From the NCBI RefSeq assembly GCF_004526345.1, contig NZ_CP038213.1:62001-126000 (forward strand): 64,000 nucleotides of DNA. The letters run 5' to 3'. Under the pieces are notes generated by a model. The model worked only from the letters and a program-made list of their open reading frames with translations. It made no database searches and was not told the DNA's origin. This document shows, piece by piece, positions 7,695 to 40,309 of the stretch (positions within the stretch are counted from its first letter, which is position 1; each line of letters opens with the position of its first letter). The stretch comes from Ornithinimicrobium flavum (GTDB lineage Bacteria; Actinomycetota; Actinomycetes; Actinomycetales; Dermatophilaceae). Position numbers and translations under genes: made by a program.

Positions 7695-7705
7695 CCCCCC
7701 TGCAA

Positions 7706-7860: not shown

Positions 7861-7907
7861 GGGGGTGCGGCGCGGCGTGGCGCCGCCGCGCCGCGGGCCG
7901 TCCGCGC

Positions 7908-26213: not shown

Positions 26214-26350
26214 GCTAGCCCCGCACTTCCCTGCCGCCTCACAGGAAGTTCCCGTTCGGCGAGAAAGTTACCCGTTCGTGATGTATGCGGCCCCCGCGTG
26301 CCCTGTATCGCCGCGCCCGCCCCGCGACCGCCCGCCGTCGCGCCCCGCCG

Positions 26351-26446
26351 CGCCCCGTGAGCGCGCGCCGCACCGCGCCCCGTGAGCGCGCGCCGCGCGC
26401 GCCCCGTGAGCGCGCGCCGCGCCGCGCCCCGTGAGCGCGCGCCGCG
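26351..26446. repeat. 24/25-bp GC-rich tandem repeat, four copies
   Basis: The unit CGCCCCGTGAGCGCGCGCCG begins at 26351, 26376, 26400 and 26425. It fills the gap upstream of cstA, beside palindrome copy 1. No coding potential is supported. Confidence 0.8.
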
Positions 26447-26498
26447 CCGCCGCGCGCCGCGCCGCCGCCCGTCGCGCCCCGCCCCGCCCGCGTTCCCC

Positions 26499-26565
26499 TA
26501 TGGACAAGGAAGATCGTCATAGGCAAGGTCGAGAGCCTTGTCCATGTCGATCCTCCTTGCCTATC
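26499..26565. repeat. 67-bp palindromic element, copy 1 (inverted orientation)
   Basis: A 30-bp arm, 7-bp centre TCGAGAG and 30-bp arm, with inner stem GGCAAGG/CCTTGTC and outer stem GGACAAGG/CCTTGCC. It ends 8 bp from the stop of the 26573-26842 gene. Other copies are at 38724-38790 and 40043-40109 in the opposite orientation. Confidence 0.85.
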
Positions 26566-26572
26566 CAGGGCC

Positions 26573-26842
26573 CTACCGGGTGCGGCGCACCACGACCGCG
26601 GCGACTCCGGCCGCGACGAGGGTCAGGCACCCGATGGGGAGCGGGAGGCAGCAGCCGCCCACCGTGACCCGGGTGTTGCCCCGGCTCCAGGTGCGGCTGG
26701 GCAGGGGCCCCATACCGCCGCTCTGGGAGGTCCACCCCTCAGGATGCTGAGCCTGCCGCTGCGCCTCGTCCTCGGCCCACGGGTCCAGCGGCTCTCGCCC
26801 GGGGTCCTGGTCGGGGGGCGGGGGGAAGGCCGGTGTGGTCAT
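26573..26842 (-). CDS. small hypothetical single-pass membrane protein
   Basis: Predicted protein of 89 residues. A polar, Pro- and Gln-rich N-terminus (PPPPDQDPGREP) is followed by one C-terminal hydrophobic segment (CCLPLPIGCLTLVAAGVAAVVV) and a basic end (RRTR). The ATG at 26842 has a weak CACGAT box 6 nt upstream and no Shine-Dalgarno sequence. It resembles no family I can name. It sits alone between palindrome copy 1 and the pxp operon. It could be a non-coding open frame, but its composition looks protein-like. Confidence 0.5.
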   Translation of the reverse strand: MTTPAFPPPPDQDPGREPLDPWAEDEAQRQAQHPEGWTSQSGGMGPLPSRTWSRGNTRVTVGGCCLPLPIGCLTLVAAGVAAVVVRRTR

Positions 26843-26904
26843 CGGCCGATCGTGGCACCGATCCGCCCATCCGGCAGTCCGGGCCGTCGCAGCCCCACCC
26901 ATCG

Positions 26905-27043
26905 GGCAGTCCGGCCCCGGCCGGCCGTTCCGCCTGTCCGGTCAGGCTGAGCCGCCAGTCCGGCCCGAGGCCCGGCCCTTCTGGAAGGCCGGTCAGGCTG
27001 AGTCGCCCGCACCGGCAGTCCGGCCCCGGCCGGCCGTTCCGCC
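26905..27043. repeat. 30-bp direct repeat, two copies
   Basis: An identical 30-bp stretch at 26905-26934 and 27014-27043 (beginning GGCAGTCCGGCCCC). CCGGTCAGGCTGAG is also duplicated in between. It lies between the divergent 26842 and 27135 genes. Confidence 0.75.
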
Positions 27044-27121
27044 CGCCCGGTCAGGACACCGACCCATAAGCGCCTCGGCCCCCTGGTGGGTCGAGCCGTC
27101 CCGCGGGCCGGGGAGGCTCTC

Positions 27122-27127
27122 TACGCT
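27122..27127 (+). promoter_or_regulatory. -10 box (TACGCT) of the pxpABC operon
   Basis: TACGCT is 7 nt before the ATG at 27135. A GGGAGG sequence lies in the same interval, so either a leaderless or a very short leader start is possible. Confidence 0.4.
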
Positions 27128-27134
27128 GGGAGGT

Positions 27135-27992
27135 ATGCGGATCGACCTCAACGCCGATCTCGGCGAGTCCTTCGGCACCTGGGTGCTCGGCGACGACGCC
27201 GCGATGCTCGACGTGGTGACGAGCGCGAACGTCGCGACCGGCTTCCACGCCGGGGACCCCGGCACGCTGCTGCGCACCGTGGGGCACGCCGCGCGGCGGG
27301 GGGTGGCCGTGGGTGCCCAGGTCGGGTACCGCGACCTCGGGGGGTTCGGGCGCCGGTTCGTCGACGTCGACCCCGAGGAGCTGGAGGCGGAGGTGCTCTA
27401 CCAGCTCGGCGCGCTGGACGGGCTGGCCCGGGTGATGGGAACGCGGGTGACCTACGTGAAGCCGCACGGCGCGCTCTACCACGCGGTCGCGCACCACGAG
27501 CGCCAGGCGCGGGCCCTCGTGCGCGCGATGCACGACTGGGGCCGGACCCACGGCGACCGGTCCATGCCGCTGCTGCACCAGGCCGGCTCCCTGGCCCATC
27601 GGGTGGCCCAGGGGGAGGGCATCCCGGTGGTGACCGAGGCGTTCGCCGACCGCGGTTACCGGCCCGACGGCCGGCTCGTCCCGCGTGGCGAGCCGGGCGC
27701 CCTCCTGGAGGACCCGCACGAGGTGGCCGAGCGGCTGGTGCGCCTGGCGGTGGAGGGGGTCGTCACCGCGGTGGACGGGACCGAGGTCGAGGTGCGGGCG
27801 GAGTCGATCTGTGTCCACGGCGACACCCCGGGCGCGGTCGGTATGGCGCGGCAGGTGCGGGCCGCGCTGGAGCGGGAGGGGATCGAGCTCGCCTCCTTCG
27901 CCCCTCCGCCCGTCGCGGGGGAGCCGGGTGGGTCCTCACCGGCCGCGGCGCCCCGCGAGTCGTCGCCGCCGGTCGCAGGCGGCCCCGGATGA
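27135..27992 (+). CDS. pxpA: 5-oxoprolinase subunit A (LamB/YcsF family)
   Basis: Protein of 285 residues beginning with the family signature DLNADLGESFG and carrying NVATGFHAGDP, YVKPHGALYH and EAFADRGY. PxpA with PxpB and PxpC forms the bacterial ATP-dependent 5-oxoprolinase, which opens 5-oxoproline to glutamate. All three genes follow in order. The C-terminus has an added Pro/Ser/Gly-rich tail of about 35 residues. Its stop overlaps the pxpB start (ATGA). Confidence 0.93.
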   Translation: MRIDLNADLGESFGTWVLGDDAAMLDVVTSANVATGFHAGDPGTLLRTVGHAARRGVAVGAQVGYRDLGGFGRRFVDVDPEELEAEVLYQLGALDGLARVMGTRVTYVKPHGALYHAVAHHERQARALVRAMHDWGRTHGDRSMPLLHQAGSLAHRVAQGEGIPVVTEAFADRGYRPDGRLVPRGEPGALLEDPHEVAERLVRLAVEGVVTAVDGTEVEVRAESICVHGDTPGAVGMARQVRAALEREGIELASFAPPPVAGEPGGSSPAAAPRESSPPVAGGPG

Positions 27993-28735
27993 CCCTCCGG
28001 CTGCTGCGTCTCGGTGAGCACGCGGTGCTCGTCGAGGTGGCCGGCGCCCGGGAGGTGCTCCGCGTGACGGAGCGGCTGCACCGCCTGCCCGGCGTGGCGG
28101 AGGGGAGGCTGGAGGTCGTGCCCGCCGCGCGCACGGTCATGGTGCGCGCCGAGGACCCGGCCGACCTGGCGCCGGTCGCCTCCGTGCTGGAGGTCGCTGA
28201 TGTGGTGGAGCCCGATGCGGCGCGACACGGTGGGTCAGGCCCCGACGCACGGTCCGGGCCGACGGGCTCGGAGCGCCCCGACCCCGCCATCGGGCCGTCG
28301 GGCCCCGGCGACCCCGATGAACCGCCCGGGCCCTCGGTCTCCGCGGGCGCAGACCTCGACGTCATCGTCGTCCCGGTCCGCTACGACGGCCCGGACCTCG
28401 AGGAGGTCGCCCGGCTGACCGGCCTCGGGGAGGACGAGGTCGTGCTCGCGCACACGGGCGTGGTGTGGACGGTGGCCTTCATCGGCTTCGCACCCGGGTT
28501 CGCCTACCTCGCCGGGGGCGACCCCCGGCTGCACGTCCCACGGCGTCCCAGCCCGCGGACCTCCGTCCCCGCCGGGGCGGTGGGCCTGGCCGGCGAGTGG
28601 TCGGGGATCTACCCGCGCCCCTCGCCCGGGGGCTGGCAGCTCCTCGGCCGCACCGAGCTCGTGCTGTGGGACGTCGAGCGCGACCCGCCCGCGCTGCTCA
28701 CCCCGGGGGCACGCGTGCGCTTCGAGGCGACATGA
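27989..28735 (+). CDS. pxpB: 5-oxoprolinase subunit B (KipI family)
   Basis: Protein of 248 residues with the KipI-type C-terminal domain (FIGFAPGFAYLAGGDPRLHVPRR, PAGAVGLAGEWSGIYP). Between the N-terminal domain and this domain is a Gly/Pro-rich linker of about 45 residues (about 75-120) that is not typical of the family. It overlaps pxpA by 4 nt and is followed by pxpC after 28 nt. It acts with pxpA and pxpC in 5-oxoproline recycling. Confidence 0.9.
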   Translation: MTLRLLRLGEHAVLVEVAGAREVLRVTERLHRLPGVAEGRLEVVPAARTVMVRAEDPADLAPVASVLEVADVVEPDAARHGGSGPDARSGPTGSERPDPAIGPSGPGDPDEPPGPSVSAGADLDVIVVPVRYDGPDLEEVARLTGLGEDEVVLAHTGVVWTVAFIGFAPGFAYLAGGDPRLHVPRRPSPRTSVPAGAVGLAGEWSGIYPRPSPGGWQLLGRTELVLWDVERDPPALLTPGARVRFEAT

Positions 28736-28763
28736 CGGACCGCGCCTCCGCGCCGGGTGCGCC

Positions 28764-29711
28764 ATGACCGACCGCGGCCGGTCCCTCCTGCGGGTGCTGG
28801 CCACCGGCACCCAGGCCCTCGTCCAGGACCTGGGCCGTCCGGGCCTCGCGTCGCTCGGCGTGGGCCGGGCCGGCGCCGCCGACCGGGCCGCCCACGCGCT
28901 CGCCGCCCGGCTCCTCGCCCAGGACCCCTCGGTCGCGGGGCTGGAAGTGCTGCTCGGCGGGCTCGTCGTGCGGGTGGAGACGTCCGGGTCACGGACCACC
29001 CCCTTGACGATCTGCCTCGCCGGCGCCCCGGCGCCCGCCACGGTCGACGACCGGCCCGTGGCGCTCGGGGCACCCCTCCTCCTCCACCCGGGCCAGGTCC
29101 TGTCCATCGGGGTGCCGACCGCGGGGCTGCGGACCTATCTCGCCGTCCGCGGCGGGGTCGCGGTGCCCTCGGTGCTGGGCTCCCGCTCTCACGACACGCT
29201 GGCCGGTCTCGGCCCGCCGCCGCTCGCGCCGGGCGACCTGCTGCCGGTCGGCGACCCACCCCCGTCCCACCCGCACGTCGACGTCGCCCCGACCCCGCCC
29301 GTCCCCGACCTGGACTCCGTCCTGACCCTGCGGGTCAGCGCCGGTCCGCGGGCCGACTGGGTCGAGGCGGGCGCGCGGGGCGACCGGGCCGACGGTCGCC
29401 ACGGCACACCCGCCGCCCTGCTGGACACGACCTGGACCGTCTCCGAGCACACCGACCGGGTCGGCACCCGCCTCGAGGGGACGGGACTCACCCGGGCGGC
29501 GGCATACCGGGACCGCGAGCTCGCGAGCGAGCCGATGGTGCGCGGTGCGGTGCAGGTGCCCCCGGACGGACGGCCGGTGGTCTTCGGGGCCGATCATCCG
29601 GTGACGGGTGGGTACCCGGTGGTGGCCGTCGTCCTCGACGCCGACGTCGACCGCCTGGCGCAGGCGAGGCCAGGGCAGCGGGTGCGGTTCCGACCCGGTC
29701 CGGGGGCCTGA
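28764..29711 (+). CDS. pxpC: 5-oxoprolinase subunit C (KipA/biotin-dependent carboxylase-like domain)
   Basis: Protein of 315 residues from the AHS2/KipA family: QDLGRPGLASLGVGRAGAADR, LRTYLAVRGG, VLGSRSHDTLAGLG and HPVTGGYPVVAVV are characteristic. It completes the PxpABC complex. The ATG at 28764 is used because the earlier ATG at 28732 is out of frame. A hairpin terminator follows directly. Confidence 0.92.
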   Translation: MTDRGRSLLRVLATGTQALVQDLGRPGLASLGVGRAGAADRAAHALAARLLAQDPSVAGLEVLLGGLVVRVETSGSRTTPLTICLAGAPAPATVDDRPVALGAPLLLHPGQVLSIGVPTAGLRTYLAVRGGVAVPSVLGSRSHDTLAGLGPPPLAPGDLLPVGDPPPSHPHVDVAPTPPVPDLDSVLTLRVSAGPRADWVEAGARGDRADGRHGTPAALLDTTWTVSEHTDRVGTRLEGTGLTRAAAYRDRELASEPMVRGAVQVPPDGRPVVFGADHPVTGGYPVVAVVLDADVDRLAQARPGQRVRFRPGPGA

Positions 29712-29720
29712 GGGCATGAG

Positions 29721-29759
29721 GAAGGGCGCGCCGGACCCGTGACAGCCGGCGCGCCCTTC
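29721..29759 (+). terminator. hairpin terminator after pxpC
   Basis: A perfect 14-bp stem (GAAGGGCGCGCCGG and its complement) with an 11-nt loop begins 10 nt after the pxpC stop. No T tract. Confidence 0.75.
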
Positions 29760-29794
29760 GGCGCCGCACGTCGACAACCGAGGCCGGTCGCGCT

Positions 29795-29902
29795 ACGCCG
29801 GGAGCTGCAGGGGGGCTCCCGGGGCGCGAGGCCAGCCGGCGTGCAACGGGACCATCTTCGGGAGTGAAGGGGTAGAACACCCCGTCCGACGATCTCTGGT
29901 CC
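29795..29902 (+). promoter_or_regulatory. candidate structured leader RNA upstream of the CWB2 deacetylase
   Basis: Hairpin 1 is CCGGGAGC (29798-29805) with GCTCCCGG (29815-29822). It competes with ACGCCGG/CCGGCGT. Hairpin 2 is layered: GGACCA/TGGTCC (29849-29854, 29897-29902), TCGG/CCGA, then GGGGT-AGAAC-ACCCC (29869-29883) with asymmetric internal loops. Mutually exclusive pairings are typical of riboswitch-like leaders. I could not match it to a known class. Confidence 0.35.
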
Positions 29903-29919
29903 GAGCCTAGACCGCGGTC

Positions 29920-29960
29920 GGTCAAGGGTGGGTATGCGTCGGGTATGGAGTTGGTCAAGA
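29920..29960 (+). promoter_or_regulatory. GGTCAAG pair, 33-bp spacing
   Basis: GGTCAAGG at 29920 and GGTCAAGA at 29953 are 33 bp apart, the same spacing as the pair at 21179 and 21212. They lie 41-81 bp upstream of the TAGCGT box at 30001. Confidence 0.45.
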
Positions 29961-30000
29961 AATCATCCCTCCGCGTGACGCGTCGCGGGTCGCGCAGGCC

Positions 30001-30006
30001 TAGCGT
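30001..30006 (+). promoter_or_regulatory. -10 box (TAGCGT) of the CWB2 deacetylase gene
   Basis: TAGCGT is 6 nt before the ATG at 30013, which predicts a leaderless transcript. If the leader at 29795-29902 is real, a second upstream promoter would be needed. Confidence 0.45.
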
Positions 30007-30012
30007 CGAGGT

Positions 30013-31872
30013 ATGGGAGCAGGGCGCATCTGGGCCACCGGGGCCGCGCTCGCCGCGCTGACGTTGACCGCGCAGGGAGCACCGGCCGTGACACCGGGGG
30101 CGGGGGTCGACGCGTCGCCGGTCGTGGCAGCGTCGGTGGGCGCAGCGTCCGCAGGGGTGGAGCTCGGCGCCGTCGCCCCGGTCGTCGCCGCCGAGGAGGG
30201 CACGACCGCGGTGGTGGGGCCGCCGACCAGCCGGCTGAGCGGTGCCGACCGCTACGCCTCCGCGGTGGCCATCTCGCAGTGGACGTATGCCGATCCCTCC
30301 GCCGCCGAGGTCGTCTACCTCGCGCGGGGTGACGTCTTCGCCGACGCGCTCACCGCGGGCACGCTGTCGGACGGTCCGGTGCTGCTGACCAGGGGCGGCT
30401 GCCAGCCGGTGCCGAGCGTCGTGCTGGCCGAGGTCGACCGGGTCGACCCCGACGCCGTGATCGCGATCGGTGGCACCGCCGCCGTGTGCGACGAGGCCCT
30501 CGCGGACGCCGCCCAGGGCCGACCGACCGGCCGCCTCGCGGGCGCCGACCGGCAGGAGACCGCCGCGCTGATCGCGCAGCGGGCGTTCCCCGACGGCGCC
30601 GCCCGGGTCTACCTCACGCGCGGTGCCATCGGTCCGGACGCCGTGGCCGCCGGGTCGCTGCGCGACGGCCCGACCCTGCTGCTGTCGTCGACCGCCACCT
30701 CCGTCCCCGCGGTCACGGCCTCCGCCATCGACGCGCTCGACCCGTCCGCCGTCGTCGCTCTGGGCGGCACGGCCGCGGTGCCGGAGGCCACGCTGCAGGC
30801 CGCCGCGGAGGGACGCCCGACCGCGCGCCTGGCCGGCAGCGACCGCTACGGCACCGCCGTCGCCATCGCCCGCCACGCCTACCCCTCCCGCACCACGCGG
30901 GTCTACCTCGCCCGCGGTGACGGCTCCAACTTCGTCGACGCGGTCGCCTCCGGGATGCTCACCGACGGCCCGGTGCTGCTCACGCCCGGCACCTGCGAGC
31001 GGGTGCGGGGCACGACCGACGCCTTCCTGGAGCAGCGGCACCCCGGCCGCGTGGTCGCCCTCGGTGGCCCGGCGGCGCTGTGCGGCTCGACGCTGGTGGG
31101 TGTCTCGATCGCGTCGCGGCCCGCGGTGAACTGCGCCCAGACCGCGTGCATCGCGCTGACCTTCGACGACGGCCCGGCGTGGCCGACGCCGATCCTGCTC
31201 GACACGCTCGCGGGGGCCCGGGTGCCCGTCACCTTCTTCGTCGTGGGGCAGCAGGTCGACGCCAACGGTGCCTACAGCCGACGCGCGCACGTCGAGGGCC
31301 ACGCGGTCGAGAACCACACGTGGAGCCACCCCGAGCTGCCGACCCTCACGTGGTCCCAGCAGAAGGAGCAGACCGAGCGCGTCGAGACCGAGCTCGGCAC
31401 GTGGCGCCTCCAGCGCACCGACCTGCTGCGCCCGCCCTACGGGTCCTACAACACCAACACCCGCACCCTGGGCTACCCGCTCATCCTGTGGGACGTGGAC
31501 CCCGAGGACTGGAAGGGCTACAGCTCCGCCTACATCCGCAACCACGTCGCCACCTACGCTCGGTCGGGCTCGATCGTGCTCCAGCACGACCTGCACATCA
31601 ACTCGGTCAACGCGGTGCCGGGCATCATCAGCGACCTGCACTCGATGGGCTACACCCTCGTCACCGTCGAGGAGCTCGTCCCGGACATGCAGCCCGGCGA
31701 CCTCGTCTACCGCCGCGACCACGTCGTGCCCCGCTCCCAGCCCGCCGACGCCTCCGACCCCGTCGTCCTGCCCGACGGCACCGACCTCGGCCGGGTCCTC
31801 GACGGCGCCGGCGTCGACGGCATCGCCCCGGAGCGCACCGAGGACCAGCTCCTCGAGACCCTCACCGACTGA
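30013..31872 (+). CDS. secreted polysaccharide deacetylase with three CWB2 repeats
   Basis: Protein of 619 residues. A signal peptide (ATGAALAALTLTAQGAPA) is followed by three cell-wall-binding type 2 repeats (about 75-370; RLSGADRYASA, RLAGADRQETA, RLAGSDRYGTA, each with a DGPVLLT-like strand). The C-terminal NodB-type deacetylase domain has TFDDGP near residue 384, the metal-binding HTWSH, RPPYGSYN and LQHDLH. It probably de-N-acetylates peptidoglycan or a wall polymer. The repeats match those of the S8 peptidase, so both enzymes may share a wall anchor site. Confidence 0.92.
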   Translation: MGAGRIWATGAALAALTLTAQGAPAVTPGAGVDASPVVAASVGAASAGVELGAVAPVVAAEEGTTAVVGPPTSRLSGADRYASAVAISQWTYADPSAAEVVYLARGDVFADALTAGTLSDGPVLLTRGGCQPVPSVVLAEVDRVDPDAVIAIGGTAAVCDEALADAAQGRPTGRLAGADRQETAALIAQRAFPDGAARVYLTRGAIGPDAVAAGSLRDGPTLLLSSTATSVPAVTASAIDALDPSAVVALGGTAAVPEATLQAAAEGRPTARLAGSDRYGTAVAIARHAYPSRTTRVYLARGDGSNFVDAVASGMLTDGPVLLTPGTCERVRGTTDAFLEQRHPGRVVALGGPAALCGSTLVGVSIASRPAVNCAQTACIALTFDDGPAWPTPILLDTLAGARVPVTFFVVGQQVDANGAYSRRAHVEGHAVENHTWSHPELPTLTWSQQKEQTERVETELGTWRLQRTDLLRPPYGSYNTNTRTLGYPLILWDVDPEDWKGYSSAYIRNHVATYARSGSIVLQHDLHINSVNAVPGIISDLHSMGYTLVTVEELVPDMQPGDLVYRRDHVVPRSQPADASDPVVLPDGTDLGRVLDGAGVDGIAPERTEDQLLETLTD

Positions 31873-32058
31873 CCGGACGCGGGTTCCTGACAGAGCGGAC
31901 GCGGGTTCCTGACAGACCGGACGCGGGTTCGTGACACTTGTCCACAGGTGTCGGTCCCCTCGGCGACCGGACGCGGGTTCCTGACAGACCGGACGCGGGT
32001 TCGTGACACTTATCCACAGGTGTCGGTCCCCTCGGCGACCGGACGCGCGTTCCTCCAC
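31871..32058. repeat. 22-bp iterons with DnaA-box 9-mers, copy 2
   Basis: Six 22-bp units (core GGACGCGGGTTCCTGACA) begin at 31871, 31893, 31915, 31965, 31987 and 32037. Two identical-length 72-bp modules (31893-31964, 31965-32036) each hold two iterons plus a 28-bp spacer that carries a DnaA box: TTGTCCACA at 31938-31946 and TTATCCACA at 32010-32018. In each, the box sits 1 bp after an iteron, as in the copy at 7706. Confidence 0.9.
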
Positions 32059-32107
32059 CCGTCCCGCCGCCGCGCTCCTGTCGGTGCCCGCTGCCAGACT
32101 CCTCGGT

Positions 32108-33640
32108 ATGCAGCTCGCCCGCGTCATCGAGACCTCCGCCGCGGTCGCCGCGACCCGCTCCCGGACGGCGAAGACCGCCCTGCTCGCCGACACGCTGCGC
32201 GAGGCGGCCCAGGGCGGCGACCCCCGGCTGACGGAGGTGGTGGCCGACTACCTCGCCGGGGTCCTCCCTCAGCGCACGGTCGGCGTCGGCTACCGCGGCC
32301 TGAGCGCCCTCCCCGACCCGGCGGAGGAGTCCACCCTGGAGGTGCTGGAGGTCGACGCCGCCCTGGAGTCCCTGCGCGGCCTGGCCGGCTCCGGCTCGGC
32401 CGCCGCCCGGAGCGCCGCGGTCGGGGCGCTCTTCGTCCGGGCGACGGGGGACGAGCAACGCTGGCTCGTCGGCCTCATCACCGGTGAGCTCCGTCAGGGC
32501 GCCGGCGACGGGGTGCTGATGCCGGCGATCGCGCAGGCCGCGGACGTGCCGGAGGTGCTCGTGCGCCGGGCGGTCATGCTCGCCGGGTATGCCGGGCCCG
32601 TCGCCCGGGCCGCCCTCGACGGCGGGGCCGAGGCCCTGGAGGAGATCCGGCTGGAGGTGGGGCGGCCGCTGCGCCCGATGCTGGCCGGATCCGAGCCCGA
32701 CGTCGGGGCCGCGCTCGCCGCGGCCTCCGGCGCCGAGGTCGCGCTCGACGCCAAGCTCGACGGCATCCGCCTCCAGGCCCACCTCGACCGCGCCGCCGAC
32801 GTCCCCGTGCGACTGTTCACCCGCAGCCTGGACGAGATCACCGACCGGCTGCCCGAGGTGGTCGAGGCGATCGCGGGCCTGGACGCGTCGACGGCCGTCC
32901 TCGACGGGGAGGTCATCGCCCTCCAGGACGACGGGCGCCCCCACCCCTTCCAGGTCACCGGTGCACGCACCGCCTCCAGTGCCGACCCCGCGACGCTGGC
33001 GACGAGGACCCCGGTGACGACATACCTCTTCGACCTGCTGCACCTGGACGGCCGCGACCTCGTGGACGAGCCGGCCTCCGAGCGCTGGGCAGTGCTGCAG
33101 GCACTCGCGCCGGGGCTGAGCGTGGAGCGCATCACCACGACCGACGCTGCGCGCGCCCAGGCGTTCTTCGACGACGTCCTGGCCCAGGGGCACGAGGGGG
33201 TCGTCGTCAAGGACCCGCAGGCGGTGTATGCCGCAGGCCGCCGCGGGGCAGGGTGGGTCAAGGTCAAGCCGCGGCGCACCGCCGACCTCGTCGTCCTCGG
33301 CGTGGAGTGGGGCAGCGGCCGACGGCAGGGGTGGCTGTCCAACATCCATCTCGCCGCGCGCGACCCGGAGTCCGGGGAGCTGGTCATGGTGGGCAAGACG
33401 TTCAAGGGCATGACCGACGCGATCCTCACCTGGCAGACCGAGCGGTTCCTCGCGCTGGAGACCTCACGGGAGGGGCACGTCGTCCACGTGCGCCCGGAGC
33501 AGGTGGTGGAGATCGCCTACGACGGGGTGCAGACCTCCCGGCGCTACCCCGGCGGGATCGCGCTGCGCTTCGCCAGGGTGCTGCGCTACCGGGACGACAA
33601 GGGGCCGGAGGAGGTGGACACCCTGGACAGACTCAAGTGA
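32108..33640 (+). CDS. ligB: ATP-dependent DNA ligase (LigB type)
   Basis: Ligase of 510 residues, close in length to M. tuberculosis LigB. A helical N-terminal domain is followed by the nucleotidyltransferase core with KLDG (adenylation Lys216), the SLDEITDRLPEVVEA region, DGEVIAL, GHEGVVVKDP and GWVKVKP, and a C-terminal OB domain (EWGSGRRQGWLSNIHL, PEQVVEIAYDGVQ). It seals nicks using ATP and is not the essential NAD ligase. The ATG at 32108 was chosen. Only a weak CAGACT box precedes it. It follows the iteron element. Confidence 0.93.
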   Translation: MQLARVIETSAAVAATRSRTAKTALLADTLREAAQGGDPRLTEVVADYLAGVLPQRTVGVGYRGLSALPDPAEESTLEVLEVDAALESLRGLAGSGSAAARSAAVGALFVRATGDEQRWLVGLITGELRQGAGDGVLMPAIAQAADVPEVLVRRAVMLAGYAGPVARAALDGGAEALEEIRLEVGRPLRPMLAGSEPDVGAALAAASGAEVALDAKLDGIRLQAHLDRAADVPVRLFTRSLDEITDRLPEVVEAIAGLDASTAVLDGEVIALQDDGRPHPFQVTGARTASSADPATLATRTPVTTYLFDLLHLDGRDLVDEPASERWAVLQALAPGLSVERITTTDAARAQAFFDDVLAQGHEGVVVKDPQAVYAAGRRGAGWVKVKPRRTADLVVLGVEWGSGRRQGWLSNIHLAARDPESGELVMVGKTFKGMTDAILTWQTERFLALETSREGHVVHVRPEQVVEIAYDGVQTSRRYPGGIALRFARVLRYRDDKGPEEVDTLDRLK

Positions 33641-33673
33641 GACCGCGCGGCGCCGATGAGCCTGGGTGCTCGC

Positions 33674-34474
33674 TCAGCCCTCGATGCGCGGCAGGAGCGG
33701 CCCCCGAGCGCCGAGCACGGGGTCGGTGGCGGCCCGGGGCGGGAGGGGGTCGAGCGACTGGTCGGGGTTCCAGCGCAGCTGCACGCTGTTGGCGACCGCA
33801 CGCTCGGCCAGCCCGGCCGCGTCATACCCGTCCGCGATCATCGCCTCCTCGATGGCCCGGGCGATCCGCTCCGGCTGCGGGGAGCCCATCAGCCACCAGA
33901 CGAAGGGGGTGGCGCGGGTGCCGTGCACGTCGGCGACGTCCGTGCTGCTGTAGAGGTGGGGCAGGTGCAGCGCGCCGAAGGGCGCGGTGTCCAGGCCGTT
34001 GACCGCCAGCGACCGGGTGGTGAGGAAGCCCTGGCGGAAGTGCGGCCCGGTCGCGGGGACCCGGTCGTAGCGGCCCAGGAGGGAGGAGCGCTCGACGATG
34101 CGCACCCGTCCCGGGTCGAGGGTCGACCACGGCACCACCAGGGTGCTGCGCCGGCGGAGGCCGAGCACCAGCCCGTGCTCGCACACGCGGTGCCGGTCCA
34201 CGACCCCCGCCAGCAGGAAGATCAGCAGGGTGCCCCACTGGCAGACGAGCAGGGTGGCGCTGAGCGCCCAGCTGTTCTCGCCGGGCAGGAGCCACGGGAG
34301 GAGGAAGAGCGCCGACAGCGCCAGCTGGACGAGCCAGACCCGGGGGGAGGGCCAGGGTCGGAAGGAGGCGAGCACCGGGCCCATGTCGTCGGAGTCGAGC
34401 CCGGCGAGGTCGGCGAGCGGCTCGAGCTGGTCGTCGTCCTCGACGTCCCGGATCTCGAGGAAGGGCTTGGTCAT
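33674..34474 (-). CDS. hypothetical two-helix membrane protein in a WXG100-like operon
   Basis: Protein of 266 residues, last gene of the 36928-33674 operon, with ATGA coupling to the gene upstream. An acidic N-terminus precedes two membrane helices (WLVQLALSALFLLPWLL and LSATLLVCQWGTLLIFLLAGVV). The remainder is soluble, with a PH-like pattern (LVLGLRRRSTLVVPWSTLDPGRVRIV). It resembles no named family to me. Its place suggests a role in the export or control of the WXG-like proteins, or immunity. Confidence 0.7.
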   Translation of the reverse strand: MTKPFLEIRDVEDDDQLEPLADLAGLDSDDMGPVLASFRPWPSPRVWLVQLALSALFLLPWLLPGENSWALSATLLVCQWGTLLIFLLAGVVDRHRVCEHGLVLGLRRRSTLVVPWSTLDPGRVRIVERSSLLGRYDRVPATGPHFRQGFLTTRSLAVNGLDTAPFGALHLPHLYSSTDVADVHGTRATPFVWWLMGSPQPERIARAIEEAMIADGYDAAGLAERAVANSVQLRWNPDQSLDPLPPRAATDPVLGARGPLLPRIEG

Positions 34475-35289
34475 GCCGGCGCACCCAGAGTGGTCGCCCA
34501 ATGGTCGAGCACGGCGGCGTGGTCGGCCCCGACGTAGCGCAGCGCGTCCTCGCGCGTGCCCAGCGAGAGGTAGTGGCCATCGGCACCGCTGTAGACGCCC
34601 GACCACGTGGCGACGGGAGGGTCGGACAGGTCGATGCGGGTGATCGTCACCGCGGCCGTCGCCGCCGCCACCGGCTCCAGCTCCGCGGGCCGGTCGGCCA
34701 GCTGCTCGCGGGTGAGCGTCACGTCGAGGTCCGGCACAGGACGGTCGGGCTGGGCCCCGCACCACAGGGTCATCGCCTCCGCCGCCACCTCGGCGGTGGC
34801 GAGGACGAACTCGTGCAGCCCACGGTGGTCGACATACTCGATCAGCCACATCCCGGCCCGCTGCTCGTGCAGGACCGCGAAGTCGTCCGTGCCGTCCACG
34901 TGCCGCTCACCCACCACGACGCTCGTGACGTGACGGCGCATGGTCAGCAGGGCGAAGAGCTCCGGGGCCGCGTGCACGACCACCCCGTCCCCGTCCGTCT
35001 GCTGCTCGACGTGCACCATCCCCCGGGCGATGAGGCCGCGCAGCGCGGTGCTCAGCGCCGTGTCGGTATGCCCCTGCTCCAGGCGGGAGGTCCATGGCGT
35101 CGGCACCGTGGCCGGCTCGGGCGCGCCGTCGAGGACCAGCAGTTCCTCGTCGGTGAAGATGCCGAGCCGCTGCGGCCCGTCGACCGCGTCCCCGAGCCAG
35201 CTCAACCGGGTGTCGAGGACCTCCTCGTCGTCCAGCGCGACGAGGTCGGACAGGGCGACCAGGGTGGCGCCGCCAGGTGCAGCGGTCAT
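34471..35289 (-). CDS. hypothetical protein, possibly EspG-like chaperone
   Basis: Protein of 272 residues with no membrane helix. Alternating strands and helices include LGIFTDEELLVLDG, LRGLIARGMVHVEQ and a C-terminal TWSGVYSGADGHYLSLG. Position after a WXG-like effector and overall size recall EspG-type chaperones of type VII secretion, but I see no diagnostic motif. It is coupled by ATGA to both neighbours. EspG-like is a hypothesis only. Confidence 0.6.
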   Translation of the reverse strand: MTAAPGGATLVALSDLVALDDEEVLDTRLSWLGDAVDGPQRLGIFTDEELLVLDGAPEPATVPTPWTSRLEQGHTDTALSTALRGLIARGMVHVEQQTDGDGVVVHAAPELFALLTMRRHVTSVVVGERHVDGTDDFAVLHEQRAGMWLIEYVDHRGLHEFVLATAEVAAEAMTLWCGAQPDRPVPDLDVTLTREQLADRPAELEPVAAATAAVTITRIDLSDPPVATWSGVYSGADGHYLSLGTREDALRYVGADHAAVLDHWATTLGAPA

Positions 35290-36653
35290 CCGAAGAGCCC
35301 CTTGACGAAGCCCCCGACCTTGGAGCCGACGTCCTTGGCGCCCTCCCACAGCTTGCTGCCGGTCTCGGTGACCGTGTCCCAGTTGCGGTAGGCCCAGGTG
35401 CCGACGGCGACCGCCCCGGTGCCGGCCAGGACGGCCCAGCCGACCGGGTTGGAGACCAGCCCGGCGACCATCAGCACCGTGGTGGCACCACCGGCCACCG
35501 TGGCCAGGCCTCCGGCCCCCTGGGCCCAGCGGTGGCCGGTGGACTGGCTGTCGTCGGTGAAGGCGGCGTAGACGTCCAGCCCGCCGGTGATGATCGCGAC
35601 CGGCCCCATGACCTTGTTGAAGATCGGCAGGGCCTTGCCCATCAGCCCCTTGACCCCCGCGAAGCGCGTCGGTGCCGGGCCGGTGATCTGGCGCGGGGGC
35701 AGGTGGGGGTAGTACTTCCGCTGCAGGATCTCCAGGGCCCGGGCATCGCCACGCATGCCCCGCAACCACCGGTAGTGCTGCTGGGCCCGCCGGACATCCG
35801 CCGGGTTGCGGCCGGCGTAGGCCTTGAGCATCTGCCGCTCGGCCTTCATGTACTGCCGGTAGACGCTGCGGTTGCTGAGGCCCGGCGCCCCGCCCTTGAT
35901 GGCCTGGTAGGCCTGCCGGGCCTGGAGAAACTTGTCCTCCGAGCGCCGGGCCAGCCCCGCCGCGCGGGCGAAGCTGAGGACCTCGTAGATCTGCTTGCCC
36001 TTGAGCGAGGAGGTCACGGTCTTCATCAGCAGCTGGCCGCCGGCGACCAGCGCCGGGTCGATGTCGGCGTAGAAGTCCTTGAGCTCCTGCGGGTCGATGG
36101 AGATGTCCTGCGGCAGGAGGTTGGCGCTGGCCTGGGCCCAGGCGCTGGCCGGGTCCGCGGAGGACAGGTCGGGGACCCAGACGTCGACCTCGCCCGACAG
36201 GGTGCCGGCCGCGCGCCGCTCCGCCTCGGCCAGGTCGCTGCGCGCGTCCTCGGCGCTGCCCCGCTCGCGGGTCATCGCCTGCTGGTAGTCCTGCGCGAGC
36301 TCCTCCTCGCCCATCGAGCGGGCCATCCGCCACCGGTCCTGCGCCGTGCCGTAGGCGGCGGACGCCTGCGTCACGCGCTGCTGGGCCGTCCGCAGCCCCT
36401 CCGCGTAGTCGCCGAGCGCCCGCGCGATGGTGCTGAACGACATACCGACCGCCTGGGTGGCGTCCTTGACCGTGCCGCTGGCGCCCGAGTAGTCCGGGAC
36501 GCGGGCGGTGGGCAGGCCGCTGACGACGCTCCGTGAGATCGCGGCGAGCCGGTCCGAGCGGGTCCCGCCGACGGTCTCGGCGAGCGTGGAGATGCTGGCG
36601 GCGACCTCCTGCAGGCGGTCCGGGCTGCCCGGCGGGCGGGCGAAGACGCTCAT
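35286..36653 (-). CDS. WXG/LXG-like large protein, putative type VII secretion substrate
   Basis: Protein of 455 residues. The N-terminal 110 residues form long amphipathic helices (LQEVAASISTLAETVGG, ALGDYAEGLRTAQQRVTQASAAYG) as in WXG100/LXG proteins. A charged coiled-coil follows (RERGSAEDARSDLAEAERRA). The C-terminus has a Gly/Ala-rich hydrophobic block (GGLATVAGGATTVLMVAGL, VGWAVLAGTGAVAVG) and ends in GSKVGGFVKGLFG. It overlaps the 92-residue small protein upstream by 4 nt. It could be a toxin or pore-forming effector with a later gene as immunity. No known toxin motif is visible. Confidence 0.65.
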   Translation of the reverse strand: MSVFARPPGSPDRLQEVAASISTLAETVGGTRSDRLAAISRSVVSGLPTARVPDYSGASGTVKDATQAVGMSFSTIARALGDYAEGLRTAQQRVTQASAAYGTAQDRWRMARSMGEEELAQDYQQAMTRERGSAEDARSDLAEAERRAAGTLSGEVDVWVPDLSSADPASAWAQASANLLPQDISIDPQELKDFYADIDPALVAGGQLLMKTVTSSLKGKQIYEVLSFARAAGLARRSEDKFLQARQAYQAIKGGAPGLSNRSVYRQYMKAERQMLKAYAGRNPADVRRAQQHYRWLRGMRGDARALEILQRKYYPHLPPRQITGPAPTRFAGVKGLMGKALPIFNKVMGPVAIITGGLDVYAAFTDDSQSTGHRWAQGAGGLATVAGGATTVLMVAGLVSNPVGWAVLAGTGAVAVGTWAYRNWDTVTETGSKLWEGAKDVGSKVGGFVKGLFG

Positions 36654-36928
36654 CGCGGTCCCCCGGTGACGATGGTGAGCTGCTCGCCCGCCGTGTCCGT
36701 CGCGTCGGAGAGCGCGCGGACGATCGTCGACGACGCGACGAGCGCGCCGGAGACCGCGGCCATGGCGAGCTCGGCGGCCTCGCTCACCATGCCCCCGCCG
36801 GCCGCCGCCGCGGCGGCCTTGCCCTGGGCGAGCGCGGTCGCGGCGTCCCCCGCGAGGTCCGAGCTCAGGGTGGACAGGTTGCGCGATCCGGTCGCGAGCG
36901 TGCTGGGTGATCCCCCGGCGAAGGCCAT
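36650..36928 (-). CDS. WXG100-like small protein
   Basis: Helical protein of 92 residues (LATGSRNLSTLSSDLAGDAATALAQGKAAAAAAGGG, then AAELAMAAVSGALVASSTIVRALSDATDTAGEQ). Size and two-helix layout are as in ESAT-6-like proteins, though the WXG turn itself is replaced by an Ala/Gly-rich loop. GGAGG lies 7 nt before the ATG. It heads the four-gene operon and probably pairs with the following protein. Confidence 0.65.
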   Translation of the reverse strand: MAFAGGSPSTLATGSRNLSTLSSDLAGDAATALAQGKAAAAAAGGGMVSEAAELAMAAVSGALVASSTIVRALSDATDTAGEQLTIVTGGPR

Positions 36929-37067
36929 CGACTTTCCTCCCCAGTCTGACGTGGTCGCGGGACAGTCTGCCACGCCCCGGCCGGCTCGCCCACCTGCTCT
37001 TGTGGGGCGTCGGGGATGGGGTGAGGATGGGACGGCATACCCGCCTGTCCGTGTCGAAGGAGACCCG

Positions 37068-38570
37068 ATGACCAACCTGGCCGCCAACCTCGCCCGCACC
37101 GCCGGGCAGCACCCCGACCGCCCCGCGGTCATCCTGGACGACTTCGTGCTCACGTATGCCGAGCTCGAGCAGTCGGTGCGGCAGCTGGCCGGGTGGTTGC
37201 GGGGGCAGGGGGTCGGCGTGGGCGACCGGGTCGCGCTGATGCTGCCGAACGTCCCGAGCTTCCCCGTGATCTACTACGCGGCCCTGCGGCTGGGCGCCGT
37301 GGTGGTGCCGATGAACCCGCTGTTCAGGAAGCGCGAGATCTCCTTCTACCTGGAGGACTCCGGGGCCAGGCTCCTCGTGGCGCTCCCCGGGGAGGACGCG
37401 CGGGCCGCGGCCGAGCAGGTCGGCACCCAGCTGATGGAGATCGGGCCGGAGGGGCTGTCCGCCTGGGTGCACGGCGAGCTCGCGACCGAGCCGGTCGAGG
37501 AGATCGTCGACCGGGCCGGCGACGACACCGCCGTCCTGCTCTACACGTCCGGCACGACGGGCCGGCCCAAGGGGGCGGAGCTGACCTGCGACAACCTGCA
37601 GACCAACCTGGAGACGGTCAACGAGACCCTGCTCCACCTCGGCCCGGACGACGTCATCATGGGGTGCCTGCCGCTCTTCCACGTCTTCGGCATGACCTGC
37701 GGGATGAACACGGCCTTCGCCGCCGGCTCCGCGCTCACCCTCATCCCACGGTTCGAGCCGGGCAAGGTGCTGGAGATCCTGCAGCGCGACCGGTGCACGG
37801 TCTTCGAGGGGGTCCCGACGATGTATGGCGCGCTCCTCGCCGCCGCGGGCACGTCCCCGCCCGACCTGTCCTCCCTGCGCACCTGCGTCTCCGGCGGGGC
37901 GAGCCTGCCGGTGGAGCTGATGCGGCGCTTCGAGCAGACCTTCGGCTGCGAGATCCTCGAGGGCTACGGGCTGTCCGAGACCAGCCCCGTCGCCTCCTTC
38001 AACCGGCCCGACGTCGGCCGCAAGCCCGGCTCGATCGGCGTGCCTGTCCGCGGGGTGGAGATGAAGCTGACGGCCCCCGACGGCTCCGACGTCGACCCGG
38101 CCGACCCGGACGGCGTCGGCGAGATCTGCATCCGCGGCGAGAACATCATGAAGGGCTACTGGCAGCGCCCCGAGGCCACCGCCGAGGCCATCGACGCCGA
38201 CGGCTGGTTCCACTCCGGCGACCTGGCCCGGCGGGACGAGGACGGGTTCTACTTCATCGTCGACCGCAAGAAGGACATGATCATCCGCGGCGGCCTCAAC
38301 GTCTACCCGCGCGAGGTGGAGGAGCTGCTCTACGAGCACGAGGCCGTGGCCGAGGCGGCCGTCATCGGGGTGCCGCACGAGGAGCTCGGCGAGGAGATCG
38401 CCGCCTACGTCGTCCTCAAGCCAGGAGCCACCGCCACCGAGGCCGACCTCGTCGAGCACGTGAAGTCCCAGGTCGCCCCCTACAAGTACCCCCGCACCGT
38501 CCACCTCATCGATGAGCTCCCCAAGGGCGCCACCGGCAAGATCCTCAAGCGGGAGCTGCGCGAGCGCTGA
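37068..38570 (+). CDS. long-chain fatty acid-CoA ligase (AMP-binding)
   Basis: Acyl-CoA synthetase of 500 residues. The P-loop is LLYTSGTTGRPKGAE and later motifs are GYGLSETSP, GWFHSGDLA and DRKKDMIIRGGLNVYPREVE. The catalytic Lys is in GATGKILKRE. It activates a fatty or aryl acid through an acyl-AMP. The ATG at 37068 follows GAAGGAG by 6 nt. It is monocistronic, divergent from the WXG-like operon and convergent with the DUF559-like gene. The chain-length preference cannot be read from the sequence. Confidence 0.92.
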   Translation: MTNLAANLARTAGQHPDRPAVILDDFVLTYAELEQSVRQLAGWLRGQGVGVGDRVALMLPNVPSFPVIYYAALRLGAVVVPMNPLFRKREISFYLEDSGARLLVALPGEDARAAAEQVGTQLMEIGPEGLSAWVHGELATEPVEEIVDRAGDDTAVLLYTSGTTGRPKGAELTCDNLQTNLETVNETLLHLGPDDVIMGCLPLFHVFGMTCGMNTAFAAGSALTLIPRFEPGKVLEILQRDRCTVFEGVPTMYGALLAAAGTSPPDLSSLRTCVSGGASLPVELMRRFEQTFGCEILEGYGLSETSPVASFNRPDVGRKPGSIGVPVRGVEMKLTAPDGSDVDPADPDGVGEICIRGENIMKGYWQRPEATAEAIDADGWFHSGDLARRDEDGFYFIVDRKKDMIIRGGLNVYPREVEELLYEHEAVAEAAVIGVPHEELGEEIAAYVVLKPGATATEADLVEHVKSQVAPYKYPRTVHLIDELPKGATGKILKRELRER

Positions 38571-38621
38571 CGGGTCGGGAGGGGTAAGTGGCGGGCCGGC
38601 TGGCGGGCGGCGGGACGGCCC

Positions 38622-38705
38622 GACGGGTGCTGGGCCCGGCGGGTGCTGACGGGTGCTGGGGCCGGCGGGTGCTGACGGGTGCTGGGGCCGGCGGGTGCTG
38701 AGGCC
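38622..38705. repeat. 26-bp tandem repeat beside palindrome copy 2
   Basis: Two exact 26-bp units (38641-38666, 38667-38692; core ACGGGTGCTGGGGCCGGC) with partial units on each side. They lie just after the acyl-CoA ligase gene. Confidence 0.8.
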
Positions 38706-38723
38706 GGTCACCGATCGCCACCG

Positions 38724-38790
38724 TAGGGACCAGGAACATCGACATGGACAAGGTTCTCGACCTCGTCCATGTGCGCCTTCCTTGTCTATG
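38724..38790. repeat. 67-bp palindromic element, copy 2
   Basis: A 30-7-30 layout with centre TTCTCGA and inner stem CATGGACAAGG/CCTCGTCCATG. It lies between the convergent acyl-CoA ligase and DUF559-like genes, a terminator position. It is related to copies at 26499 and 40043. Confidence 0.85.
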
Positions 38791-38843
38791 CGCGTCGGCG
38801 AGGAGGAGGGTCGCGAGGTCACGTGCCCCTTCGCGTCGCCGGT

Positions 38844-38891
38844 CCACGTGTGCCTCCGGCCCGCCGACCACGTGTGCCTCCGGCCCGCCGA
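38844..38891. repeat. 24-bp tandem repeat, two copies
   Basis: Two 24-bp units (core ACGTGTGCCTCCGGCCCG) at 38844 and 38868, flanked by a duplicated ACGTGCCCCTTCGCG. They lie between palindrome copy 2 and the end of the DUF559-like gene. Confidence 0.75.
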
Positions 38892-38916
38892 CGACGTGCC
38901 CCTTCGCGCCGCAGGT

Positions 38917-39996
38917 TCACGCGCCGAGACGGGAGCGTGCCTCCGCACGAGCGATGGCCGCGAGGATCATCTGACGGACGCGCGCCGGGTGGGCCAGGTC
39001 GGCCCAGGTGAGGCGCACGACCTCGTAGCCCATCTCGCGGATCCGGTCCTCACGACGCTTCTCGGCGAACAAGGCCGCCGGGTCGGAGTACTTGAGCTGG
39101 CCGTCGAACTCGGCGAGCACCATGACGTCCTTCAGCTTGAGGTCGGCCACCCCGAGCAGCACCCCACGCTCGCGCACCTGGAACTGCGTGATGAAGGGGC
39201 CGAACCCGAGGCCGTGGAGGAGCCAGCGGGTGCGGCTCTCACCGGCCGACTGGCTGCCGCCGTCGGCGAGCTGCACCACCTGCCGCACGACCCTGTCCGC
39301 CCTGGGGAAGCCCTGGGCCACGGCCCGGTCGATCTGCTCCTGCACGTCGGCACGGGCGGGCCCGTCGCGGCGTCCGACCTGGCGGAGGTCCTGCTCCTCG
39401 GCGCGGTTGAGGACACCGTCGAGGCACACCAGGCCGGCCTCCACCCCGCTGTGCGCTGCCACCTGCAGGGCCGCCATGGCGGGAGCGACGACGCGCAACC
39501 CGTCGACCACCGTGACCCACTCCTCGACGACGGGGGTGTGCACGAAGACGGTGCGGTCCCGCCGCCCCCTTCCGCCGTCCGTCCGGCAGAGGTGGACCAG
39601 CTCATCCTCGCCGCCGAGGTGCGGGAGCCCGTGGATGACCAGCGCGCTCTGATGGCTCAGGGCGTGGACCACGTCCTCCGGGCCAGCCGTCCCCTCCTGC
39701 CCAGCAGGTCCTGCAGGGCGGCCGGACGCCGGGGCGAGGCTCAGGCCCACCGCCCGCGTGATGACCGCGCGCCGCTCCCACGGGGTCCTGTCCTGCAACG
39801 CCGAGGCCAGGACGAGGGTGTCGCGGCGCACCCGCACCAGCTCACCCCGCCGGACCATCCTGCACAGCTCCGCGCGGCTCGCGCCCGCCGCGATCAGCTG
39901 CGCGGCGTCCGCCACACCCTCCTGGCCGACCAGGACGGACATCACGTGCGCCAAGGCCGTCGAACCCTGACCCCCCTGCGTTCCCATGCCGAGCAT
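38917..39996 (-). CDS. AbiEi-like / DUF559 domain protein
   Basis: Protein of 359 residues. The N-terminal part resembles the winged-helix AbiEi antitoxin-like domain (LVGQEGVADAAQLIAAGASRAELCRMVRRGELVRV). The C-terminal domain has the DUF559 nuclease-like pattern: ESRTRWLLHGLG, then GVADLKL and VLAEFDGQLKY, giving an E-D-E(F)DG spacing seen in Vsr-like folds. Such genes are abundant in actinobacteria and usually lack a partner toxin, as here. The start at 39996 is tentative, as no Shine-Dalgarno sequence is visible. Confidence 0.72.
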   Translation of the reverse strand: MLGMGTQGGQGSTALAHVMSVLVGQEGVADAAQLIAAGASRAELCRMVRRGELVRVRRDTLVLASALQDRTPWERRAVITRAVGLSLAPASGRPAGPAGQEGTAGPEDVVHALSHQSALVIHGLPHLGGEDELVHLCRTDGGRGRRDRTVFVHTPVVEEWVTVVDGLRVVAPAMAALQVAAHSGVEAGLVCLDGVLNRAEEQDLRQVGRRDGPARADVQEQIDRAVAQGFPRADRVVRQVVQLADGGSQSAGESRTRWLLHGLGFGPFITQFQVRERGVLLGVADLKLKDVMVLAEFDGQLKYSDPAALFAEKRREDRIREMGYEVVRLTWADLAHPARVRQMILAAIARAEARSRLGA

Positions 39997-40027
39997 GGTG
40001 CCCGGTCCGGCGCGCGTCGCGCAGAAG

Positions 40028-40036
40028 TTGTCCACA
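40028..40036 (+). promoter_or_regulatory. DnaA-box 9-mer beside palindrome copy 3
   Basis: TTGTCCACA matches the DnaA-box pattern found inside both iteron elements. It lies 6 bp from palindrome copy 3 and upstream of the DUF559-like gene. There are no iterons here. Confidence 0.45.
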
Positions 40037-40042
40037 GGGGCG

Positions 40043-40109
40043 TACGGACAAGGAAGACGGGCATGGACCACGCTCTCGACGTGGTTCATGCGCGTCTTCC
40101 TTGTCTATC
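40043..40109. repeat. 67-bp palindromic element, copy 3
   Basis: A 30-7-30 layout with centre CTCTCGA. The arms differ at only a few positions. The inner stem is GGACCACG/CGTGGTTC, where two base pairs changed together relative to copy 1. It lies between two minus-strand genes, downstream of the lipoprotein gene. Confidence 0.88.
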
Positions 40110-40148
40110 GGCTCGGGCGCCGCGGTGGGCTGCGCGGTGCCGCCCGCG

Positions 40149-40245
40149 CTGCCGCCCGCACCGGGCTGCCGCCCGCACCGGGCTGCCGCCCGCACCGCGC
40201 TGCCGCCCGCACCGGGCCGCCGCCCGCACCGCGCTGCCGCCGCAC
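40149..40245. repeat. 17-bp tandem repeat, five copies
   Basis: CTGCCGCCCGCACCGGG repeats from 40149 with period 17 (units at 40149, 40166, 40183, 40200, 40217 and a partial). It abuts palindrome copy 3. Confidence 0.85.
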
Positions 40246-40309
40246 CGTTCCTCGCCCGACCTCCGCGCCCGGCCGCCCTGGTGCCGAGCGACCCGACAGG
40301 TATGACGCC

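Follow-up and report, generated by a model that had tools for sequence, protein, structure and literature searches.

A 64,000-nucleotide stretch of the Ornithinimicrobium flavum genome (contig NZ_CP038213.1, positions 62,001 to 126,000; here the window, numbered from its first letter) contains three copies of a 67-bp palindrome, two of which enclose a single nuclease gene. Together they form a unit at window positions 38724-40109: palindrome, DnaA box, abiEi::vsr-like gene, palindrome. The best reading of this arrangement is a mobile palindrome system driven by a nuclease, resembling the REPtrons of the repetitive extragenic palindromes (REP) but with an enzyme unrelated to the REP transposases. 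That the palindromes are spread by the nuclease they flank is probable, although far from certain, and the finer steps are less certain still. An earlier note on this DNA had considered a terminator type, a nucleoid-protein site and a non-autonomous mobile unit. The last of these fits best; what the note missed is that two of the copies are the ends of a gene-bearing unit, which recurs in many actinobacterial genera.

The palindromes and the gene between them

Re-checking bore out the coordinates and orientations first given for the three copies, and their layout of 30 + 7 + 30 bp. Copy c1 is a solo palindrome on the minus strand (26499-26565; 72.5 bits with covariance model R2). The other two are on the plus strand: c2 (38724-38790; 68.4 bits) lies on the 3' side of the nuclease gene and forms one end of the unit, and c3 (40043-40109; 77.7 bits) lies on the 5', or promoter, side and forms the other end.

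The intact gene between c2 and c3 (38917-39987, minus strand) encodes a protein of 356 residues, which was characterized with Pfam, PADLOC profiles and structure comparison. Residues ~10-242, the N-terminal two-thirds, are AbiEi-like by profile and by predicted fold, and AbiEi profiles of PADLOC match the protein. Residues ~245-350 are predicted to fold as a nuclease of the Vsr/homing type; the closest folds in structure comparison are the EDxHD homing endonuclease I-Bth0305I and Vsr. Conserved nuclease residues are E250, D282, E293 and K299, and the active-site pattern is D...ExDGxxK. Within the window the nuclease family is matched at 38920-39987 only, so that no such gene stands beside c1. 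A phage origin was considered and rejected: among viral contigs 48 stretches fit a pattern, none of which encodes a relative of the protein, and PHROGs yielded 0 families. NCBIfam likewise yielded 0 families.

The whole 3.71-Mb genome carries ten copies of this palindrome rather than the three first described, as found by DNA search and covariance model (one further weak, partial match was left out of the count). They lie at 88.5, 100.7, 102.0, 229.6, 236.7, 251.3, 1053.6, 3282.1, 3286.9 and 3327.1 kb. All ten have the 30 + 7 + 30 layout, with the outer arm decayed in several. The centre YTCTCGA, proposed from the window copies, likewise holds for all ten ([C/T]TCTCGA, then C), but for only 25 of 47 copies from the genus, in which the centre varies. 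Each arm of the better copies in the genome contains, by eye, two similar boxes (ATGGACAAGG-like) spaced 19 bp. Two candidate readings of the palindrome were set aside. An insertion sequence with these ends was sought in the genome, and the DNA search returned the ten palindromes and otherwise weak, short matches. A coding reading (a frame like MD.VLDLVHARLPCLS) was dropped because changes do not, by eye, favour third codon positions. By inspection, nine of the ten are no more than 431 kb from coordinate zero and form clusters at 88-102, 230-251 and 3282-3327 kb, which may reflect either a link to the origin or local spread.

Recurrence in the genus and beyond

Seven Ornithinimicrobium genomes, including this one, have two palindromes 1.2-1.3 kb apart around this gene, and the proteins of the six other units are 52-57% identical to the window protein. 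The two palindromes share an orientation in five of the seven units and are opposed in the others; in one unit (genome G001) the second palindrome is weak, at 31.9 bits. Relatives of the protein are present in all 31 genomes of the genus, and the flanks of many of them, not all, hold palindromes of other sequence. Palindromes of the window type were found in 12 of the 31, which are also the only 12 among 186 genomes of the family, in a scan whose filters lose weak matches. They occur in every one of the 11 genomes whose homolog scores 200 bits or more, versus 1 of the 20 others (Fisher 1.4e-7; this cut-off was chosen after seeing the data, and the genomes are related rather than independent). 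The O. flavum genome also contains a second palindrome family, different in sequence, which flanks a nuclease-family gene of its own at 3.69 Mb and recurs at 666.5, 1079.1, 1272.9 and 3421.5 kb.

The association extends well beyond the genus. Eighty named homologous loci from GTDB genomes, the best 80 of at least 508, come from Ornithinimicrobium, Serinicoccus, Kribbella, Rhodococcus, Janibacter, Knoellia, Phycicoccus, Flexivirga and others; nearly all are labelled Actinomycetota, and one record is labelled Acidobacteria. Long palindromes, defined as gap-free and 48-110 bp in length, were counted by their centres in bins. There were 39 centres in 77 bins within 200 bp upstream of the gene and 26 in 78 bins within 200 bp downstream; farther out, to ~2.8 kb, the counts fall to 3 in 958 and 4 in 993 bins, and the interior of the gene has 3 in 387. 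Near versus far, the comparison is 65 in 155 bins versus 7 in 1951 (Fisher 9e-72). A long palindrome lies within ~350 bp of the gene in 52 of the 80 loci: upstream in 41, downstream in 26, and on both sides in 15.

Palindrome and protein also belong together by type. The left and right palindromes match in all 15 two-sided loci, each being the best match among the 26 downstream palindromes. Across the 52 loci, palindrome similarity tracks protein similarity (Pearson 0.63, Spearman 0.25, permutation p 0.0005), with the proviso that loci of the same genus are not independent in these comparisons. Where the protein score exceeds 0.6, 51% of the pairs have a palindrome in common (score over 33); among 1184 pairs with a protein score below 0.4, sharing is 0.00 to two decimals in each class.

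AbiEi-type loci with and without the nuclease domain were compared within the order. A long palindrome is present at 10 of 18 AbiEi_4 loci with the domain and at 2 of 12 without it (Fisher 0.058), the sorting having been done by hidden Markov model, which scored one locus (L385) as lacking the nuclease (3.3 bits) despite a plausible motif and palindromes on both sides. Four AbiEi-type loci in other genera of the order (L380, L381, L385 and L389) have long palindromes on both sides; those of L385 are almost perfect and close to the gene.

The gene is commonly preceded by a further element. In the window, the 9-mer TTGTCCACA (40028-40036, plus strand) lies between the gene start and c3. According to a review (PMC4285127), Streptomyces coelicolor and Mycobacterium tuberculosis have this sequence as their high-affinity DnaA box, and Escherichia coli has TTATCCACA; the match suggests that DnaA may bind here as well. 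In 44 of 76 loci the motif TTRTCCACA is found on one strand or the other from -160 to +30 relative to the estimated start of the gene, most often at -45 to -61; elsewhere in the same loci it has only 3 hits in 487,446 bp. None of 26 solo palindromes has it within 250 bp. A motif-free count of all 9-mers in the upstream region returned, as its top members, 9-mers that belong to the DnaA box. The box lies between palindrome and gene in 22 of the 23 loci that have both; among genes of this family in the genus, it is present within -250 to +120 in 8 of 14.

Pairing and covariation in the stem

In 47 copies from the genus, which were found with a palindrome model that itself favours pairing copies, 83.1% of cells are paired, compared with 67.3% in shuffles. 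Changes on both sides affect 25 of the 30 pairs and 254 cells, compared with 110.5 in shuffles (0 of 500 shuffles), and sliding the partners by 1-3 columns lowers pairing to 32-43%. The ten copies of the O. flavum genome alone give a weaker signal: 11 pairs, 7.0 expected, 9 of 500 shuffles. The palindrome is kept over its whole length, and its tip is irregular. The three pairs at the tip, next to the closing G-C pair, are formed in 5, 7 and 4 of the ten copies in the genome and in 24, 27 and 29 of the 47 genus copies; in 40 of these 47 the closing pair itself is kept, and the pair outside the three, C26-G42, is invariant. The compensatory change first noticed between copies 1 and 3 is real, but it falls where the stem pairs least well. 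At that place copy 2 is mismatched (A.C), and copy 1 has mismatches further out.

Further copies and covariation, the absence of which the earlier note had named as grounds against its idea, were thus both present. Its step from covariation to selection for structure stands in part: the covariation of the stem is strong, but the inference to a folded hairpin is only partly safe, because arms that are each read by one protein monomer would also change together as the protein's specificity shifts. Selection on a folded strand could account for the pattern; so could recognition of each arm by one monomer, with specificity differing between lineages; and so could template switching, which can make imperfect palindromes perfect. 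The present data do not separate the three.

Solo, unit and cargo states in Rhodococcus

An 80-bp palindrome family is present in 22 of 37 Rhodococcus genomes, both as pairs ~1.1 kb apart and as solo copies. One of its sites was compared over stretches from 12 genomes. Ten of these (G225 and nine others) have a palindrome followed by the gene; a second palindrome on the far side of the gene gives a BLAST match in five of nine, and is decayed in three that were aligned (G209, G226 and G231). Between its palindromes, G225 has an extra 6.2 kb that is not in the stretches from the 11 other genomes. This segment encodes a permease-like protein, a member of the ornithine-cyclodeaminase family, a pyridoxal phosphate enzyme and a LysR-like protein (the permease and LysR being named from translations by eye), and beyond it stands a third palindrome, which includes the final bases of the nuclease gene. 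In G215 a single palindrome is joined directly to the right flank, where others have palindrome, gene, palindrome; in G232 most of the nuclease gene is lost.

Comparable differences are found elsewhere. At another place, G210 has 2.3 kb (a TetR gene and a beta-lactamase-family gene) between two palindromes, within 290-bp repeats, and G209 has one palindrome without the 2.3 kb. At a third, the match between G209 and G211 stops at the outer edge of a palindrome. Segments bounded by palindromes therefore come and go.

One solo site (L232) was followed through all 37 genomes: ten have the palindrome; in 16 the flanks are adjacent without it; three have another insertion of ~1.6-1.8 kb, which in the one checked, G232 (L294; G232:C16:264400-268300), encodes DUF222-HNH; one has its flanks on separate contigs; and seven show the right flank alone (E up to 1e-20). 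This intergenic site seems to attract different small elements. An empty site was also sought around the O. flavum copy at 1,053,557, where the matches in relatives are not syntenic.

Neighbouring genes and repeats

According to the earlier note, every copy lies directly downstream of a gene end. A bias to gene ends is indeed broad: the 35 genus copies, c2 and c3 included, comprise 16 in convergent gaps, 14 in tandem gaps, two in divergent gaps, one inside a reading frame and two left unclassified, as judged with a crude gene caller. For c3 the statement is unsure, because it is the start of the nuclease gene that faces this copy, and the minus-strand frame beyond it (40310-41203, ending 200 bp away) has no Pfam hit and was left out by the gene caller. 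The copy c1 is one of the two classed as divergent; a minus-strand frame of 109 residues (26573-26902), without a Pfam hit, ends 7 bp from it. The gene beyond c2 encodes an AMP-binding enzyme (Pfam).

GC-rich tandem arrays adjoin all three window palindromes (26309-26482, 38617-38707 and 40140-40247, with periods of 25, 26 and 17). Across 28 genus loci, 20 array rows in 10 loci lie near palindromes, versus 5.3 expected if uniform; rows overlap, and intergenic position confounds this comparison. Another dispersed repeat, with ACCGGACGCGNGTTCCTG units in direct and inverted order, is present at 7705-7863 and 31866-32054. Each of its groups also contains a DnaA-box-like TTRTCCAC (7808, 31938 and 32010), and the groups may be remnants of a sister palindrome family that lacks its gene.

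A proposed mechanism and its rivals

How might the nuclease spread the palindromes? In Streptococcus agalactiae, AbiEi recognizes a pair of 23-bp inverted repeats, with 3 bp between them, in the promoter of its own gene, and a relative binds two such pairs (PMC7319586). Because the 30 + 7 + 30 promoter palindrome closely parallels these paired repeats, the AbiEi-like part is proposed to bind the two arms of its cognate palindrome, and the promoter-side copy would double as an operator. The fused Vsr/EDxHD-like nuclease would then nick or cut at or beside the palindrome, perhaps in the form of a hairpin exposed at replication. The DnaA box would tie expression to replication, a time at which long palindromes are able to fold. 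If the break is repaired with another copy of the palindrome as template, the palindrome alone, the whole unit, or neighbouring cargo could spread; recombination between the flanking copies would delete the gene and leave a solo palindrome such as c1. The comparisons show the anatomy, the association with the gene, the cognate pairing, the dispersal, the conserved catalytic residues, the predicted folds and the three states at one locus, from which DNA binding, cleavage, DnaA control and the route of transposition are inferred.

Several results weigh against this mechanism, or limit its reach. By the length and gap criterion, 28 of the 80 loci have no long palindrome, and the contrast between AbiEi-type loci with and without the nuclease is suggestive only. 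The pairing of gene with palindrome has exceptions: G021 has window-type palindromes without a close homolog; G027 has a homolog without a palindrome nearby; and in the O. flavum genome itself, a close paralog at 812.6 kb (L125) has no long palindrome. The DnaA box is missing from 32 of 76 loci and from 6 of 14 genes in the genus. Ten copies are few beside the hundreds to thousands of REP. In Rhodococcus, the cargo differences of G225 and G210 share a repeat of 110-290 bp, and there ordinary homologous recombination is explanation enough. How copies first spread calls for something more, for which the flanked nuclease is the natural candidate. Consistent target-site duplication was not seen, by eye, in 57 rows of Rhodococcus palindromes, several of which cover the same place; a lone possible 6-bp repeat was noted at one site (rows L237 and L239). 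Nor did the solo site L232 provide a clean empty site: in genomes that lack the palindrome, identity in the left gene is only 68-75%, and hence the 16 genomes with adjacent flanks give no base-exact junction.

Three other explanations would dispense with nuclease-driven spread. The palindromes might be operators, with the AbiEi part an autorepressor, the solo copies a regulon or chromosome-organizing sites, and the nuclease incidental, so that nothing moves. The AbiEi precedent comes close to the 30 + 7 + 30 layout, upstream copies do sit in the promoter region, and the location of nine of the ten genomic copies within 431 kb of coordinate zero counts on the same side; the matching downstream copy of all 15 two-sided loci is then unexplained, copies in gaps that face promoters are rare (2 divergent of 32 classifiable copies), and the DnaA box that precedes the gene accompanies none of the 26 solo copies. 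This explanation is unlikely, if less so than the two that follow. Species-specific intrinsic or bidirectional terminators, or stabilizers of RNA 3' ends, spread by duplication, would account for strong hairpins near gene ends (16 of 32 classifiable copies lie in convergent gaps) and for the strong pairing covariation. No U tract follows the O. flavum copies (by eye), and Rfam has 0 matches at gathering score in the window; moreover, copies matched before and after one gene family, of a type that co-varies with the nuclease-family protein, are not explained by such a scheme. A plain terminator or a single RNA family was rejected as the leading explanation, since matched palindromes flank one gene family before and behind and seldom occur elsewhere out to ~2.8 kb; the broader terminator idea is given little credence.

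Equally little is given to a defence or addiction module. Its nuclease would attack DNA that is foreign or unmarked, the palindrome would serve as a self-marker or a regulatory site, and solo copies would be modules in decay. In favour are the link of the Vsr fold to mismatch or modification repair and further points: the PADLOC AbiEi profiles match, genomes have many paralogs, and G232 shows a decayed module. Set against these points, the 1.2-1.3 kb spacing of the seven genus units fits the nuclease gene alone, so that neither a partner toxin nor a methylase lies inside; decay alone would hardly account for eight solo copies in one genome; and no relative was found in viral contigs, which tells little either way. 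Spread by the flanked nuclease thus remains the preferred reading. Its boldest form is tentative, and on balance doubtful: a new class of mobile element, widespread in Actinomycetota, in which a single DnaA-controlled AbiEi-Vsr nuclease would act at fork-exposed hairpins, recognize a lineage-specific palindrome, spread it to gene ends, and make hot spots that capture incoming DNA, for example the 6.2-kb and 2.3-kb segments of Rhodococcus.

Comparison with known systems

The system would work like a REPtron (TnpA-REP/RAYT) without being one. Both combine an enzyme gene with cognate, family-specific palindromes that are also dispersed singly between genes, and both have an irregularly paired stem. 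The enzyme flanked here is AbiEi plus a Vsr-like PD-(D/E)XK nuclease, with no match to HUH or tyrosine enzymes (Pfam, PADLOC and structure comparison), and a DnaA box precedes its gene. A REP palindrome is described as 20-50 nt in length (PMC8266576) and preceded by a GTAG-type tetranucleotide; the palindromes here are of 67 bp with 30-bp arms, and the ten O. flavum copies share no such flanking tetranucleotide (by eye).

Other systems share single features. The N-terminal part relates the protein to AbiE type IV toxin-antitoxin systems, but here it is fused to a nuclease, a second palindrome lies beyond the gene end, solo palindromes are dispersed, and only the nuclease gene lies between the palindromes, with no room for an AbiEii toxin gene. 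The nuclease domain has the same predicted fold as Vsr and the EDxHD homing endonucleases, of which I-Bth0305I forms a dimer on a target almost 60 bp long (PMC3943268). Unlike these, the gene is not intron-borne, had no relative among the viral contigs searched, and encodes an AbiEi-like DNA-binding part and the pattern D...ExDGxxK; palindromes of its own lie on either flank. The solo and unit states at one Rhodococcus locus bear on homing-type copying into empty alleles, and could reflect change in either direction. Matching ends, solo non-autonomous derivatives and intergenic position recall insertion sequences and miniature inverted-repeat transposable elements, but here each end is a full palindrome, and duplication of the target was not consistently seen. 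Cassettes of integrons (attC) likewise have imperfect palindromes after gene ends, and segments between palindromes that are gained or lost; here the palindromes are dispersed rather than arrayed, and comparison by eye with the consensus showed no attC box sequences.

Searches of open-access papers, judged by titles and abstract openings and mostly without subscription papers and preprints, brought up no description of such a system. Among known families none was found that pairs an enzyme of this kind with ends of this kind; its general logic has precedents, and movement is a proposal.

Significance

Actinobacterial genes annotated merely as 'AbiEi family antitoxin domain' or 'DUF559' gain a testable role and a cis-acting partner. 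The subfamilies, each pairing its own protein with its own palindrome, are a natural set of proteins and sites for studies of specificity. The system also suggests a link between replication control (the DnaA box), a nuclease of the repair or homing type, and gene gain at palindromes. If the proposed mechanism is true, nuclease-triggered repair does what REPtrons and integrons do by strand transfer, and enzyme and palindrome evolve as lock and key. It would give a second, independent origin for the spread of short palindromic repeats in bacteria, so far credited to the HUH transposases of REP systems.

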